Shown in pieces: positions 35,448 to 41,736 of a DNA stretch of 64,000 nucleotides; position 1 is the stretch's first letter; each line of letters starts with the position of its first letter. Position numbers and translations under genes: made by a program. This DNA comes from Bacteroidota bacterium. Its GTDB lineage: Bacteria; Bacteroidota; Bacteroidia; Palsa-965. The stretch covers positions 1 through 64,000 of the forward strand of contig JACQAM010000022.1 in assembly GCA_016194975.1 (NCBI GenBank), read 5' to 3'. Under the pieces are notes generated by a model. The model made no database searches, was not told where the DNA came from, and saw only the letters and a program-made list of their open reading frames with translations.

Positions 35448-37136
35448 ATGAAAACGCAAACAAAATACATTTCTGTCATTTCCGCTCTCCTGATCGGAAC
35501 AGGAATATCCGCGCAAACGCTGCAGGATGCGATTCGCCTTACCGACGATGAACAATTTCCGAAAGCGAAAACTACGTTCGATCAGCTCGTGGCAAAAGAT
35601 CCAACCAACGGAGATAATTTTTTCTACTACGGCGATCTGCTCCTGAAATCGGATGATCCCGAAGGGGCGAAAGCACAATTTCAGAAGGGAATTGATATCA
35701 ACGCAACAAATCCCCTTGTACACATAGGCATGGCGCGCTATTCACTATCATCCGGAAAAGCAGATGATGGAATGAAAGAGATCGCATATGCCCAAGCGCT
35801 CATTGCAACAGAAGTTGGAAAAAAAGGAACAACACTCACTCCGCAGCGACAAGCGCAACTGGATCTTGAAATGGCAAAATCATTGCTGGCTGCAACGGCT
35901 CCCGATTTCCAGGCGGCACTCGATCTTACTGCGAAGGCAGAAAAACTTGATCCGAAAAATCCGGATGTGTTTCTTACACGCGGCGATATTCTTTACAAAA
36001 AAAATCCGGTGGAAGGCAGCGCTCCAGTCACCAATTACACCAATGCTGCGAAGCTCGATGCAAAATCGTGCAAAGCGTATGTGCGCATCGGTAATCTTTA
36101 TGCGAACGGAAAAAATATGCAGTCGGCGATCGGTTATTATAATCTTGCGCTGAAGATCGATTCTACTTTTGCGCCAGCGTATCGCCTGCGCGGAGAGGCG
36201 CAATACCAGATCGGGAAATTCGATTCCGCTTCTTACAGCTATTCAAAATACCTCGCGCTCAATCCCGATTGTTATTCGCGTTACCGCTATTGCGCATTCC
36301 TTTACAAGAGCGGCGACTTTGATAATTCCATCAAACAGGGACAACAGGTTTTACAGTGCGACAGCACGATCTCTGTGGTGTATCGCATCGTTGGCCGTTC
36401 TTATCTCGACATGAAAACTCCTGATGCTGCAAAGTGCGTGGACTATTTCAATAAATTTTTTGCGAAGCAGAAATTGTATGGAAAACCGGCGCTGCTTGCC
36501 GACGATTACATTTATCGCGCGCGCGGATATGCAAAACAGAATATGGATTCACTTGCCATTATGGATTACGAAGCCGGATTGAAAACAGACACTTCACGAA
36601 AAGATATTTACTTCGAGTTGGGCGGGGAATATTTTAAAATGAAGAAGTACGATCAGGCCGCGGCCACTTACAAAAAGAAGATAGACGGCAACCCGGCAAA
36701 GGCGAACATCTCTGATTACAATGCTTATGGCCGTTCTTTATTCCTGCAGAAAGATTATGTAAATGCCGACAGCGCTTTCAAAAAAGTGTGCGTGCTCGAT
36801 CCGAAAAATCCGATTGGCTGGTATTGGAGGGGCCGCTGCAATGCATCGCTCGACCCGGATGTAAAGTCAGACAGTGCGCGGAAATTCTACGAGGCGTTCT
36901 ATGATCTTGCCATTGCCGATAAAGACAAAAACAAAAAAGAACTCATTGTGGCCGGCAAATATTTTGCGAGCTACAACTACATCAGGAAAAATTATGCCTG
37001 CTCAAAAGCGTGGTTCCAGTTTGTTCTTGAACTTGACCCGAATGACGGTAATGTGAAAAGTCAACTGGATACAGATAAATCGCTTAAGGCCGTTGCCGCT
37101 GCTTCTGATTTGAGTACGTGCAGGATGGGGAAATAA
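35448..37136 (+). CDS. Secreted TPR-repeat protein
   Basis: A 562-residue protein with signal peptide (residues 1-23, ending GISAQ) and tetratricopeptide repeats over most of its length: for example GDNFFYYGDLLLKSDDPEGA, CKAYVRIGNLYANGKNMQSA and IYFELGGEYFKMKKYDQAAA. Probably periplasmic and part of the exbB-tonB gene cluster. A possible -7 box, TATTTTTG (35432-35439), lies only 8 bp before the start, so it may also be expressed from its own promoter with almost no leader. Confidence 0.9.
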   Translation: MKTQTKYISVISALLIGTGISAQTLQDAIRLTDDEQFPKAKTTFDQLVAKDPTNGDNFFYYGDLLLKSDDPEGAKAQFQKGIDINATNPLVHIGMARYSLSSGKADDGMKEIAYAQALIATEVGKKGTTLTPQRQAQLDLEMAKSLLAATAPDFQAALDLTAKAEKLDPKNPDVFLTRGDILYKKNPVEGSAPVTNYTNAAKLDAKSCKAYVRIGNLYANGKNMQSAIGYYNLALKIDSTFAPAYRLRGEAQYQIGKFDSASYSYSKYLALNPDCYSRYRYCAFLYKSGDFDNSIKQGQQVLQCDSTISVVYRIVGRSYLDMKTPDAAKCVDYFNKFFAKQKLYGKPALLADDYIYRARGYAKQNMDSLAIMDYEAGLKTDTSRKDIYFELGGEYFKMKKYDQAAATYKKKIDGNPAKANISDYNAYGRSLFLQKDYVNADSAFKKVCVLDPKNPIGWYWRGRCNASLDPDVKSDSARKFYEAFYDLAIADKDKNKKELIVAGKYFASYNYIRKNYACSKAWFQFVLELDPNDGNVKSQLDTDKSLKAVAAASDLSTCRMGK

Positions 37137-37171
37137 ATTTTATTCCTTCACAACTTTTCGGATTCGTAAAA

Positions 37172-37253
37172 TTATTTAACTATACACAACTTCTCTGATC
37201 TCACATCTCCGTCACTTGCACTTATTCTTAAAACATAACACCCAACAGAAAGA
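37172..37253 (-). pseudogene. Orphan C-terminal end of a T9SS type A sorting domain, cut by the IS element
   Basis: Read on the minus strand, the DNA next to the left IS end encodes LSVGCYVLRISASDGDVRSE and then KLCIVK followed by TAA (37174-37172). This matches the last strand pair of a T9SS type A domain (GVYVLRI ... KIVIVK). The frame runs straight into the IS end at 37254. The rest of the gene is not found in the 120 bp beyond the other IS end. Confidence 0.7.
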
Positions 37254-37297
37254 TGGAGTTGATAACTTAGACTGGAGTAATTATTTTTAGCTAAACG

Positions 37298-37612
37298 ATG
37301 CGACCAATGAAAATGAAACAGGTAAGAATGCGTTACGGAAAAGATTTCAAGATCAAAGCCGTAGAATTAAGTAATCAAAGAGGCAGCGTTCAGCAGGTTG
37401 CCGAGGAATTAAATATCAACACCGAGACACTCCGGCTTTGGAAACGTGCGTATCATGAAGGAAAACTTACGCATGAATCAGCAGCGAAAGAACGACCACG
37501 AAGTAAGGAAGAGGACGAGTTGCGTAGGTTGAAAAAGGAATTGTATGAAGTAACATTGGAACGGGACATCTTAAAAAAGGCGGTCACCATCTTCTCCAAG
37601 AGCGGCAAATGA
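37298..37612 (+). CDS. IS3-family transposase OrfA
   Basis: A 104-residue helix-turn-helix protein of the IS3 OrfA type (transposase_8): MRYGKDFKIKAVELSNQRGS, AEELNINTETLRLWKRAYHEG (HTH about 31-50) and a leucine-zipper-like C-terminus (LRRLKKELYEVTLERDILKKA). It overlaps orfB by 4 bp (ATGA) and carries an in-frame A AAA AAG slippery heptamer at 37573-37579. Confidence 0.94.
   Translation: MRPMKMKQVRMRYGKDFKIKAVELSNQRGSVQQVAEELNINTETLRLWKRAYHEGKLTHESAAKERPRSKEEDELRRLKKELYEVTLERDILKKAVTIFSKSGK
37573..37579 (+). other. Slippery heptamer for programmed -1 frameshift (OrfAB)
   Basis: The heptamer A AAA AAG lies in the zero frame of orfA (codons TTA AAA AAG, 37571-37579). A -1 slip continues in the orfB frame (GGC GGT CAC ... 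CAA ATG) with no stop before the orfB ATG, so an OrfAB fusion of about 394 residues is expected. Confidence 0.75.
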
Positions 37613-38481
37613 AATTTAGTTTTATTGACAAGCATAAAACTGAGTTTCCTGTCGGGAAGATGTGTAGGATAATGAAAGTGAGTGAGAGCGGATTTTACAA
37701 TTGGCAAGTGCGTGTTCCCTCTGTACGCGCAAGGCGTGGTGCATACCTGCAAGAGCAAGTGAAACGCGTGCATGAGCGAAGCAGAAAACGATATGGCAGC
37801 CCGAGAATAACTGCTCAGTTGAATAGTGAAGGAATAAAAGTATCACAACCTACAGTTGCAAAACTGATGAGAGTACAAAGCATAAGAAGCATCGTAAGAA
37901 AGAAATTCAAAGTGACGACTCAGTCTTCGCATCGTTATCCTGTGGTTGAAAATATAGTGAGTAGAAATTTCAACCCCGCAAGAATGAATCACACCTGGGT
38001 GTCAGATCTCACTTACATTTACACTGGAGGCGGTTGGATTTACTTGACAACAGTGATCGATCTTTTTGATCGCAAAGTGATCGGATGGGCGCTGAGTGAA
38101 ACGATGAAAACCTGTGACACAAGTGTTCCAGCATTTAGAATGGCAGCAACAAATCGAAAACTATCGAGGGATCAGCAACTCACTTTTCATTCTGACCGAG
38201 GTATTCAGTATGCGTGCGATGAATTTGTGGACGAGATGAAGAGGTTTCCTAAACTTCAGAGAAGCATGAGCAGAAAAGGTGATTGCTGGGACAATGCTGT
38301 TGCGGAGAGTTTTTTCAAGACCCTCAAGACAGAGTTGGTCTATCAGGAAAAATACGAATCAAAATTTCAGGCTAAATTAGCGGTGTTCGAATACATTGAA
38401 GGTTGGTACAACAAGCATCGCCGTCACAAACATCTGAACAACCTCACCATTGAAGAATTCCACGGATCAATTAACAACTAA
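37609..38481 (+). CDS. IS3-family transposase OrfB (DDE integrase)
   Basis: A 290-residue catalytic subunit with the rve-type DDE fold. Acidic residues: the first Asp in TWVSDLTYIYT (about 126), the second in FHSDRGIQYA (about 193) and the Glu in WDNAVAESFFKTLK (about 229). An HTH_21-like N-terminus (RVHERSRKRYGSPRITAQL, about 47-65) precedes it. Length and motifs are normal, so the element may be active. Confidence 0.95.
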   Translation: MKFSFIDKHKTEFPVGKMCRIMKVSESGFYNWQVRVPSVRARRGAYLQEQVKRVHERSRKRYGSPRITAQLNSEGIKVSQPTVAKLMRVQSIRSIVRKKFKVTTQSSHRYPVVENIVSRNFNPARMNHTWVSDLTYIYTGGGWIYLTTVIDLFDRKVIGWALSETMKTCDTSVPAFRMAATNRKLSRDQQLTFHSDRGIQYACDEFVDEMKRFPKLQRSMSRKGDCWDNAVAESFFKTLKTELVYQEKYESKFQAKLAVFEYIEGWYNKHRRHKHLNNLTIEEFHGSINN

Positions 38482-38659
38482 AAAAATGCGGAGTGAAGCA
38501 GAAATTAAATACTCCAGAAAATGTTTGCAATTCCATTCCATGTCTTAATGCGGGGACCACACATTTTATCCGATCATAAGCGGTTGAAAACGAGTATCAC
38601 GAAATGTTTTTATTTCTTTTGCGGACAATAAAAATCAAACCATTTAAAAACCAATTTTT

Positions 38660-39280
38660 ATGAAACCAAAAATCAACCTTGATCTGAAAAGAAAAAGCGT
38701 TCCGCAACTCATTGAGTTGGGCAATCACATTGTGGCATCCATGACCGGCAATGCAAATTTTCCAACTCCGCATCCGGCGCTTGCGGCAGTTACCACTGCG
38801 ATCACCACATTGCAGAACGCCGACACGGCTGCTCTCGGTGGAGGCGCGGCGCTCAAAAGTGTAATGCATCAGAAACAGGAAGTGCTCAACCAGTTGCTCA
38901 CACAACTTGCATTGTATGTAGAAGGAATTGTGAACGATCCTTCGGTTGCCGATGCAAACAAAGAAGTAATGATCCTCAGTTCCGGAATGCAAATGAAAAC
39001 ACTGACCCATCCGCAGCATCACGTATTCGGAGTGAAACACGGATCGGTTTCCGGGTCTATAGATTTAAGGGCAGAAGGAATAGAAAGAGGAATGCACAAC
39101 TGGGAATATGCAATGGAACCTTCCATGGCCAATGGCTGGCACCTCGCCCCGGCTACCATGCAGGCGCATACTACTATAAACGGACTGACCGTGGGGGCGC
39201 AGTATTCTTTCCGTCACCGCGCGGTTACAAAAGAGGGGGAACAGGACTGGGGACAGCCGCTCTCGATTGTGGTGGTGTAG
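38660..39280 (+). CDS. Conserved-type protein of unknown function with a fibronectin III-like C-terminus
   Basis: A 206-residue protein without a signal peptide. Residues 1-110 are helical (KPKINLDLKRKSVPQLIELG, HPALAAVTTAITTLQNADTA). Residues about 120-206 resemble a fibronectin III fold: MHNWEYAMEPSMANGWHLAP, TTINGLTVGAQYSFRHRAV and WGQPLSIVVV. Start ATG 38660 follows an A-rich leader. An intrinsic terminator follows. I do not know its role; single-domain proteins of this type exist in Bacteroidota as far as I recall. Confidence 0.8.
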   Translation: MKPKINLDLKRKSVPQLIELGNHIVASMTGNANFPTPHPALAAVTTAITTLQNADTAALGGGAALKSVMHQKQEVLNQLLTQLALYVEGIVNDPSVADANKEVMILSSGMQMKTLTHPQHHVFGVKHGSVSGSIDLRAEGIERGMHNWEYAMEPSMANGWHLAPATMQAHTTINGLTVGAQYSFRHRAVTKEGEQDWGQPLSIVVV

Positions 39281-39310
39281 AAAAATAATGCTAATGATCC
39301 TGGAAAAGGG

Positions 39311-39337
39311 GCCGTTCTCAGGGACGGTCTTTTTTTA
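39311..39337 (+). terminator. Rho-independent terminator
   Basis: Hairpin with arms GCCGTT/GACGGT (one end pair and one inner pair are G-U) around a CTCAGG loop, then a run of eight T. It lies 30 bp after the stop of the 206-residue gene. Confidence 0.75.
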
Positions 39338-39369
39338 TTTAGGTATGCCTGTTGTGCTGCAATACAACT

Positions 39370-39462
39370 ACTGTACGAACTACGAAATACGAAATACACG
39401 AAGTACGAAGTACGAAACGAATACGAAACTTCGTACTTCGTGTATTTCGTAGTTCGTACAGT
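39370..39462. repeat. 93-bp inverted repeat made of TACGAA units
   Basis: Left arm ACTGTACGAACTACGAAATA... and right arm ...TATTTCGTAGTTCGTACAGT pair over about 35 bp. The left arm has one extra GAAATAC unit. The loop holds more TACGAA copies. It lies between a plus-strand terminator and a minus-strand stop (39469), so it could end the minus-strand transcript, but it also belongs to the TACGAA repeats of the nuo spacers. Confidence 0.85.
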
Positions 39463-39468
39463 ATAGTT

Positions 39469-41682
39469 TTAACGCTGCACCATTACTTTCTCCGTCACCA
39501 CTCCATCGTTCGTGAGAATTCTCACTAAGTACATTCCGTTATCGGCGGCGGTAAGGCCGATCTCTTTTTTGAAAGAAGTGATGTTGCTTTCTTCGTCGGT
39601 GAAAATATTTCTTCCCGCTACATCCACCACTTCTATGGTTACATTTTTCGCTTTGGAGAATTCAAATGAAACGGTGAATTGCCCGTCATTCGGATTCGGA
39701 TAAATGCTCAGCGAATTGGCGAGATCCACATCCTGCAATCCCACCTGCGTGATTGTGACCACCTGTGTGTACGTATCTGTTCCGCATGGGCCGGTAACCG
39801 TAAGCGTAACGGTGTACGTTCCGTTTACATTGTAAGTGTGGCTTGGATTTGCGCTGGTGTTTGTGCCGCTTGCATCGCCAAAATTCCAGCTGTAAGAAAC
39901 AGCATTGGTAGATTGATTGGTGAAGTTTGCCGTTGCGCCTGTGACGTTGAAAATAAATTGCGCATTGGAGCCGGGAAGTACATTCACCAGCACCACATCA
40001 GAAGCAGAACATCCGTTAATGTCTGTTCCCGTTACATAATAAGTTGTCGTAGTACTCGGACTGACCGAAATACTTTGCGTAGGCGCACCTGTACTCCACA
40101 CATAAGTTAATCCGCCGGAGCCGGTAAGTGTTGCAGATTGTGAAGGACAAATATCCTGGTCGGGCCCTGCAGAAACTGAAGGCGGAACATTAGCAGTTAC
40201 TACAACAGTGTCCTGCGCAGAACATCCTGATGGGTCTGTGATCTGCACCGACCACGTTCCTGTTCCTGCAGAAATAGTTTGAGAAGTTGCTGCGTTGTTC
40301 CACAAATAAGTTGCTCCCGGATTTCCGGCATCAAGAACAATTGCAGCAGTACAGATGGCGGTATCGGGGCCAAGATTTGCATTCGGCTGATTATTGATCG
40401 TAACGTTGATCGTGTCGGAGTTGGAACATCCTGCTGCGGTTATTACATCCACAGAATAAGTTCCTGTTGAAGAAACAGATGTTGTTTGCGATGAAGTGGA
40501 ATTGGACCAGAAATAAAGTGCGCCGGGATTTCCGGCATTGAGTGTAACTGTTCCTCCGCATTGTGTAGTGTCGGCTCCTAAATTCACTGTGGGCGCCGGA
40601 TTCATAGTCACATTCACCGTATCGCTGGCCTGGCATCCGTTTCCATCAGTAACAAGCACAGCCACATTTCCTGTTGAAGTAACGTTGGTGGTTTGAACGC
40701 TGGATCCTGTGGTCCACGAATAATTAGAAAAACCTGCGCCGGCGTCGAGCGTAAGATTTGCATTGCACGTGCTGGTATCATTTCCCAATGAAACAACCGG
40801 ATTCGGATTAATGGTGATGATAATGTTATCGGAATTCATACAACCGTTCAGGTCCTGCACGGCAACAGAATAATTTCCACTCAGCGTTACATTCAGCGTT
40901 TGTGTTCCTGCGCCGGTGCTCCACAAATAAGTTGCTCCCGGATTTTGTGCATCGAGAAGAATAGGCCCGCCGCACAGCGTAGTATCATTTCCGAGATTCA
41001 CCGTCGGCGCCGGCAATAGCGTTACTAAAACCGTATCGGTGGCTTTGCATCCATTCGCATCAGTAAGTGTAAGTGTATAATCCTGCGTAGCGGTAACTGT
41101 TGCTGTTGTTTGCGGCACGGTGCTGCTTGCAAGATTAGTTGGTGGTTGCCAATCATAAGCGTAAGGAGTTGTTCCCCCGCTGCCGTTGTTTGCAATTCCA
41201 AGAGTAACCGTATTGTTCGTGCATGCCTGCAGGTCGGGCGCAGAGGTGAGCGAAGGAATGCCCGATCCGGCAGTATTCATTGTCATTGTTACATCAACCG
41301 AAGAAGTGGAAGTGGAACAGAAAAAAAGATCGACGAGTACACGAACTTCTCCGCAAAAATTCGGAGTGAAGCTTGTCTGCGATCTCAGTCCGCAGAAATC
41401 GTCATTATAGGCGAGAAAAGCTCCTGTTGCATCATTGTAAACAGTAAGCTGTGTGTCGAACGAAGAATTGCTGCACGTGGAGACGGTGTAATTTGCTCCT
41501 GCAACAACATTCGCAAGCACGTACTGGCCGAATTGATAATTCTGTGTGGTGGAAAGTGTGACTCCGGGGGGAGTGAGATTTCCTGCGACGAGTACATTGT
41601 CATTCGGACATTGGGATTTACCCAATTCCGGAAAAATAAAAAGAGAAAAAATGACAACGAGGTTTCGTAACGTTTGTTTCAT
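39469..41682 (-). CDS. T9SS-sorted multi-Ig/PKD surface protein
   Basis: Secreted protein of about 737 residues; the start is taken at 41682 (MKQTLRNLVVIFSLFIF..., a clear signal peptide) rather than nine codons upstream. An N-terminal pre-peptidase-like beta domain (about 20-140: YTVSTCSNSSFDTQLTVYND) is followed by about eight Ig-like units with the pattern NLGADTTQCGGTVTLNAGNP and GCxASDTVxVTV, one PKD domain (VSYSWNFGDASGTNTSANPS) and a T9SS type A domain (SIYPNPNDGQFTVSF ... MYLVRILTNDGVVTEKVMV). Probably a surface adhesin-like protein. A good TTG-N19-TATTTTTG promoter precedes it. Confidence 0.92.
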   Translation of the reverse strand: MKQTLRNLVVIFSLFIFPELGKSQCPNDNVLVAGNLTPPGVTLSTTQNYQFGQYVLANVVAGANYTVSTCSNSSFDTQLTVYNDATGAFLAYNDDFCGLRSQTSFTPNFCGEVRVLVDLFFCSTSTSSVDVTMTMNTAGSGIPSLTSAPDLQACTNNTVTLGIANNGSGGTTPYAYDWQPPTNLASSTVPQTTATVTATQDYTLTLTDANGCKATDTVLVTLLPAPTVNLGNDTTLCGGPILLDAQNPGATYLWSTGAGTQTLNVTLSGNYSVAVQDLNGCMNSDNIIITINPNPVVSLGNDTSTCNANLTLDAGAGFSNYSWTTGSSVQTTNVTSTGNVAVLVTDGNGCQASDTVNVTMNPAPTVNLGADTTQCGGTVTLNAGNPGALYFWSNSTSSQTTSVSSTGTYSVDVITAAGCSNSDTINVTINNQPNANLGPDTAICTAAIVLDAGNPGATYLWNNAATSQTISAGTGTWSVQITDPSGCSAQDTVVVTANVPPSVSAGPDQDICPSQSATLTGSGGLTYVWSTGAPTQSISVSPSTTTTYYVTGTDINGCSASDVVLVNVLPGSNAQFIFNVTGATANFTNQSTNAVSYSWNFGDASGTNTSANPSHTYNVNGTYTVTLTVTGPCGTDTYTQVVTITQVGLQDVDLANSLSIYPNPNDGQFTVSFEFSKAKNVTIEVVDVAGRNIFTDEESNITSFKKEIGLTAADNGMYLVRILTNDGVVTEKVMVQR

Positions 41683-41706
41683 AGTTTGCCGGGTTAACGT
41701 TATAGA

Positions 41707-41736
41707 CAAAAATAATTAAATATGCCACGTGGGCAA
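41707..41736 (-). promoter_or_regulatory. Bacteroidota-type promoter for the minus-strand T9SS gene
   Basis: On the minus strand, TTG (41736-41734) is followed after exactly 19 bases by TATTTTTG (41714-41707), matching TTTG-N19-TAnnTTTG with one missing T. The start codon at 41682 is about 25 bases downstream of the -7 box. Confidence 0.6.

Follow-up and report, generated by a model that had tools for sequence, protein, structure and literature searches.

Features of the Locus

The window analyzed in this study comprises the first 64,000 nucleotides of contig JACQAM010000022.1 from the Bacteroidota bacterium assembly GCA_016194975.1. An intact insertion sequence (IS) was identified between a TPR-repeat protein gene and a gene for a T9SS type A cargo protein, accompanied by a short coding remnant on its left and an fn3-like gene on its right. 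The features of this region are as follows:

35448-37136, + strand: TPR-repeat protein gene, left ancestral neighbor, without a hairpin after its stop codon (Pfam TPR; orthologues in relatives)
37172-37253, - strand: probable 3' remnant of a T9SS cargo gene (the stub), consisting of the last 26 codons, the stop codon and one base of a split codon (sequence, tail HMM)
37254-38535, + strand: IS3-family element, intact, 1282 bp (OrfB profile match, inverted ends, alignment with element L030)
37254-37279, + strand: left terminal inverted repeat of the IS, TGGAGTTGATAACTTAGACTGGAGTA (end comparison)
37298-37612, + strand: OrfA (HTH_Tnp_1), with an A-AAA-AAG slip site at 37573-37579 (Pfam, NCBIfam; slip site read from the sequence)
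37609-38481, + strand: OrfB, DDE (rve) transposase, also with HTH_21 (Pfam, NCBIfam)
38510-38535, - strand: right terminal inverted repeat of the IS (end comparison)
38536-38659, + strand: right flank, leading up to the fn3-like gene; minus strand without recognized T9SS coding (stop scan, in silico joining)
38660-39280, + strand: fn3-like gene, 206 amino acids (Pfam fn3 below cut-off)
39469-41709, - strand: PKD/Ig T9SS type A cargo gene (PKD-T9SS gene), right ancestral neighbor, intact (Pfam/NCBIfam; orthologues in the relatives G001, G003, G006, and G007)

In the first-pass annotation of this DNA, the interval 37172-38535 was assigned to the IS copy. This interval covers the stub in addition to the IS: position 37172 belongs to the stop codon of the stub, and the element itself starts at 37254.

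The Insertion Sequence and Its Copy Number

The OrfB product matched the NCBIfam model NF033516 (transpos_IS3) with 313 bits, the cut-off being 160. OrfA and OrfB overlap by the four bases ATGA, and the slip site, which lies in the OrfA frame, is a candidate for -1 frameshifting. The inverted ends, reading TGGAGTTG at 37254 and CAATTCCA at 38535, are imperfect inverted repeats, with 73% complementarity over 40-nt arms. An element from a Sphingobacteriaceae MAG (L030, positions 73-1354), also 1282 bp in length, could be aligned at the DNA level (66%) exactly from 37254 to 38535; since this alignment yields the same limits, the boundaries of the element are independently supported. L030 was also the closest relative found, its OrfB being 62% identical. 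With its overlapping reading frames, slip site, DDE transposase, TGGA...TCCA inverted ends, and length of 1.28 kb, the element corresponds to known IS3-family insertion sequences, but it differs in the absence of a target duplication and in the distance to its closest relative found. Judged by these sequence features, it is a divergent member of the family.

To find further copies, the genome assembly (4,104,499 bases in 28 contigs) was searched. At the DNA level (E 0.001), no copy besides 37254-38535 was detected, and an OrfB search at E 1e-60 recovered only the query itself in this genome and one 40%-identical match in a single one of the other 58 genomes. A genome-wide pattern search for the end sequence, allowing up to three mismatches, returned the two ends of the element and one further position (C12:27779), which was rejected as a solo IS end because it is a three-mismatch match inside a tandem repeat. 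Three rve-domain proteins, OrfB included, were found in the genome; one of the other two (L192) is 28% identical to OrfB over 213 residues, and the other (L193) gave no significant match (E 1.1). The element therefore appears to be present as a single copy.

A Probable T9SS Remnant at the Left End of the Element

On the minus strand, the DNA touching the left IS end encodes LSVGCYVLRISASDGDVRSEKLCIVK (codons 37175-37252), followed by a stop codon at 37172-37174. The IS interrupts a further codon, of which base 37253 is the third position, and the stub frame runs straight into the left end of the element. Comparison of the 26 residues with Pfam and NCBIfam produced no match, even at E 10. A tail HMM was built from 30 T9SS domains of the same genome, the best-scoring among those listed, none of them originating from the window. 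The stub achieved 10.8 bits in this model and ranked seventh among all 26-mers of the window that precede a stop codon (1401); of the six placed above it, five end T9SS genes that are among the matches listed, and the sixth (46318) is absent from that listing. None of 20,000 shuffled versions reached the score of the stub, the best of them scoring 9.9 bits, with the 26-mers and shuffles left unscored by HMMER counted as lower (1066 of 1401 and 16,307 of 20,000 were scored, respectively). The stub is thus most likely a real T9SS tail and not a chance frame. Its residues fit the C-terminal end of the type A sorting domains (TIGR04183/PF18962) of the genome's own cargo genes; in contrast to these, it retains about the last third of the domain and lacks the front. 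The sequence and the tail HMM hence agree with the first-pass annotation, which had described the last 26 residues and the stop codon of a T9SS sorting domain next to the left IS end, in a frame entering the element.

At the DNA level, no paralogue of the stub was found with the 117-bp left flank, the best other match in the same genome having an E value of 0.4 and the best match in 19 relatives comprising 24 bases (E 0.001). With 150 of 282 candidates scored, the number of type A sorting domains of the T9SS in the 4.1-Mb genome is at least 150, and a detached 5' part of the stub's gene may lie elsewhere in it.

Beyond the right IS end, a stop codon was encountered within 21 codons in every minus-strand frame, and no T9SS coding was recognized there. 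A simple insertion with the front half of the gene displaced to the right is rejected because stop codons and non-T9SS sequence follow the right IS end. The earlier statement that the rest of the gene is missing on this side was thereby borne out, and no intact 5' part adjoins the right end. When the IS was removed in silico, the stub frame stayed open for 12 full codons and ran into a stop at the thirteenth; the peptide joined in this way scored 12.0 bits versus 9.6 bits for the stub alone, a score equaled by 94 of 2000 random flanks.

Target Duplications in Related Copies

The element is flanked by cagaaaga on the left and ttccatgt on the right. As had been noted before, the flanking triplets AGA and TTC differ, and there is no 3-4 bp target duplication. 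A duplication hidden by a misplaced right end was considered, the right flank repeating TTCCA, and was rejected: a shift by 5 bp leads to AGA and TGT, again without a duplication, and L030 supports the inner end.

To evaluate how much weight this absence can bear, 19 related copies with both ends placed were inspected, namely 11 Entotheonella copies, L030, and seven others, the ends being placed by comparison among copies or by alignment with the window. A duplication of 3-4 bp was present in 10 of these and absent in nine; it was found in 8 of the 11 Entotheonella copies and in two of the eight other copies. The tally took in 16 of 79 related loci, eight of them from Entotheonella; a partial Entotheonella copy (L206) was left out, as were some Spirosoma, Fibrella, Cytophagales, and Dactylosporangium loci, whose ends were examined and could not be cleanly placed. 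A duplication is thus not obligatory for a given IS copy. Because nine of the 19 related copies also lack one, the missing duplication is a weak clue to a rearrangement, and less telling than had been assumed in the first-pass annotation, where it served as a sign of a non-simple insertion; the absence itself is real. The locus can serve as a worked example of an absent target duplication being weak evidence for rearrangement.

The Locus in Related Genomes

The same locus was compared in five relatives with coverage of the TPR gene and the region 3' of it, four of the same genus (G001, G003, G005, and G006) and one of the same family (G007); two further genus members were left out, G002 because a contig end truncates its TPR match and G004 because it has none. 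In G001, G003, and G007, the TPR gene is directly followed by the PKD-T9SS gene in convergent orientation, with 288 to 383 bases between the aligned ends, and the PKD-T9SS orthologues match at 61% (739 amino acids), 55% (83 amino acids, contig end), and 54% (513 amino acids), respectively. In G006, the orthologue (44% over 82 amino acids, contig end) follows a 599-aa frame, and in G005 two genes with T9SS-like tails follow the TPR gene before the contig ends. Further outward, all five relatives retain the two genes (33477 and 34487) that precede the TPR gene, and G001 and G007 also retain the next gene on the right (41770). The outer gene order is hence ancestral to the left and to the right in G001 and G007, and up to the contig end in G003 and G006.

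No match to OrfA, OrfB, or the fn3-like gene was obtained in the corresponding stretches of the five relatives at E 1e-8, and, with the exception of the two G005 tails, no further frame end in them reached the score of the stub. A relative carrying the stub and lacking the IS was not encountered among the five, all of which are devoid of that T9SS gene. The 2.3 kb between the TPR and PKD-T9SS genes, comprising the stub, the IS, and the fn3-like gene, would most simply represent extra DNA that entered at the 3' end of the TPR gene in the lineage of the window. This extra DNA begins where the five relatives have the TPR terminator: a strong hairpin follows the TPR stop codon in all of them, with -22 to -49 kcal/mol in the folded stretch, versus -2.2 kcal/mol and no such hairpin in the window (37137-37253). 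Since the order of the TPR and PKD-T9SS genes is ancestral, any loss of the T9SS front would have been local, that is, inside the extra DNA.

Gene order matching that of the relatives argues against an inversion, a long-range recombination, or a large deletion of ancestral DNA. A chimeric contig joined at the IS was likewise considered unlikely, as the flanking genes adjoin in the relatives and no other piece of the IS was found in any contig. The locus also illustrates that a deletion can be confined to an interval by the gene order of relatives, and that synteny can count against a chimeric assembly.

The interval between the TPR and PKD-T9SS genes also contains extra genes in G005 (the two genes with T9SS-like tails) and G006 (the 599-aa frame; L221 1-2190 and L222 247-2735 for these loci), and may represent a spot that gains genes repeatedly. 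With the hairpin being absent in the window, transcription of the TPR gene could continue into the transposase genes, which have the same orientation. A scan of the plus strand for terminator patterns (37000-39520) returned none, which is weak evidence, as the scan also missed a hairpin near 39300.

Proposed Origin of the Junction

A local, IS-adjacent deletion within the lineage-specific DNA is the likeliest account of this arrangement, and we consider it moderately probable. According to this account, a block carrying the fn3-like gene and, on the minus strand, a T9SS cargo gene would have entered between the TPR and PKD-T9SS genes, whereupon a single IS3-family element would have transposed into the T9SS gene, approximately 26 codons ahead of its stop codon. 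Beginning exactly at the right end of the IS, a deletion of the kind known as transposase-promoted adjacent deletion would then have removed the front of the T9SS gene together with one copy of the target duplication, reaching to the upstream region of the fn3-like gene. The account fits the anatomy because the junction is flush, the IS ends are intact, there is no duplication, and no front half adjoins the element. We infer that a full T9SS gene once resided here, that the events took place in this order, and that the transposase caused the deletion. The five relatives cannot display the state before the IS because all of them are without that T9SS gene; no genome with an intact T9SS gene at the locus was found among them, and its former presence and deletion were not seen directly.

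Deletions next to an IS are an ordinary and well-known behavior of these elements. A comparable case is the IS-adjacent deletion, as with IS150 in the long-term E. coli experiment (PMC11708052), which likewise features an intact IS with one end directly bordering sequence not originally next to it, a truncated neighboring gene, and no target duplication; the window differs from it in that the deletion is deduced, without a time series or an intact ancestor.

The absent duplication may also require no deletion at all, given the nine of 19 related copies without one. It is conceivable, albeit rather unlikely, that the T9SS gene had already decayed by losing its front through an unrelated deletion, and that the IS was inserted later beside the remnant, with the duplication absent or mutated. 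Such a history would be in line with the frequency of related copies lacking a duplication, and a remnant near some insertion site is unsurprising in a genome with at least 150 T9SS domains. The joined frame, open for 12 full codons with 12.0 bits versus 9.6, points in the same direction; however, this score was equaled by 94 of 2000 random flanks, and it would be a coincidence for T9SS coding to stop exactly at the IS end. The stub, the IS, and the fn3-like gene might also have arrived already joined, the junction having been made elsewhere and imported as one block. The absence of all three from the locus in the five comparable relatives and the start of the extra DNA at the position of the relatives' TPR terminator are consistent with such an import, as is a second fn3-like copy elsewhere in the genome (C5). 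No second arrangement of this kind was found, though, the left flank having no better match than E 0.4 in its own genome and 24 bases (E 0.001) in the 19 relatives, and we regard the import of a finished junction as improbable.

The first-pass annotation had favored either an IS-driven deletion or a recombination between two IS copies. The former is supported by the anatomy of the junction, and the latter is very unlikely in our assessment. Recombination between two direct copies, deleting the intervening DNA, would leave one intact IS without a duplication, as observed, and recombination between ISs is another frequent cause of missing duplications according to PMC11708052. Since only one copy was found, however, there is no second copy to point to; neither a second copy nor a solo end was found in the genome, and both copies would need to have resided inside the lineage-specific insert, the outer gene order being ancestral. 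Least probable of all is a one-step variant of the deletion account, in which a double-strand break inside the insert would have captured the IS, the deletion being formed together with it and a duplication never being made; IS capture at double-strand breaks was proposed for IS5 and IS481 events (PMC11708052). A tandem array preceding the fn3-like gene could have been the site of such a break; arrays of this kind are found upstream of many of its relatives and are absent here.

Repeats Near the fn3-Like and PKD-T9SS Genes

The fn3-like gene was not found in six other genomes of the genus, two of which are 66-72% complete. In another genus of the same taxonomic family, each of four genomes (G008-G011) contains 5 to 12 matches to its gene family. 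Approximately 30 to 1500 bp upstream of members of this family of ~200-aa fn3-like proteins, tandem arrays were observed whose period is 21 bp or a multiple thereof and whose unit sequences are unrelated from gene to gene. At 19 of 30 loci, such an array is located upstream (L140-L144, L148, L149, L152-L156, L158-L160, L162, L163, L165, and L168) versus one of 30 downstream, these loci being 30 of 41 family matches, including the two of the genome studied here. One of the 19 arrays (L152) is a 2.2-copy match approximately 1.4 kb away, residing in a long collagen-like frame. The fn3-like gene of the window has no array, the IS ending 124 bases upstream of it, and the second copy in the genome begins at base 78 of its contig, so that its upstream side lies outside the data.

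A class-wide sample (30 loci of 34 matches, minus three already counted, leaving 27) yielded arrays with a period of 21 or a multiple upstream at 11 of 27 loci (L243, L244, L246, L249, L251, L253, L255, L258, L262, L265, and L266) versus two of 27 downstream. Upstream arrays of any period were detected at 15 of the 27 loci, the four others having periods of 22, 40, 41, and 41. As a control, 240 kb of G008-G011 without a listed family member contained no array of such a period with at least 80 bases, the cut-off for the loci being at least 60 bases; the sole array there has a period of 36. An array appearing similar by eye lies beside the TPR gene in G011 (L014), indicating that the link to the fn3-like family is not exclusive. 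Among the literature matches listed, nothing was found on 21-bp arrays upstream of such genes. The same array step with a different sequence each time is unexplained, and looks more interesting than the finding on the IS and the stub.

The intergenic region separating the fn3-like gene from the PKD-T9SS gene contains a long, near-perfect palindrome composed of TACGAA/TTCGTA units, at approximately 39370-39463. The stretch 39281-39470 has a folding z-score of -10.4, and also contains a terminator-like hairpin. With at least 48 blastn matches across the genome, both strands being counted (40 of 70 candidate places scored), the palindrome is, as far as can be read from these matches, a repeat family of this genome.
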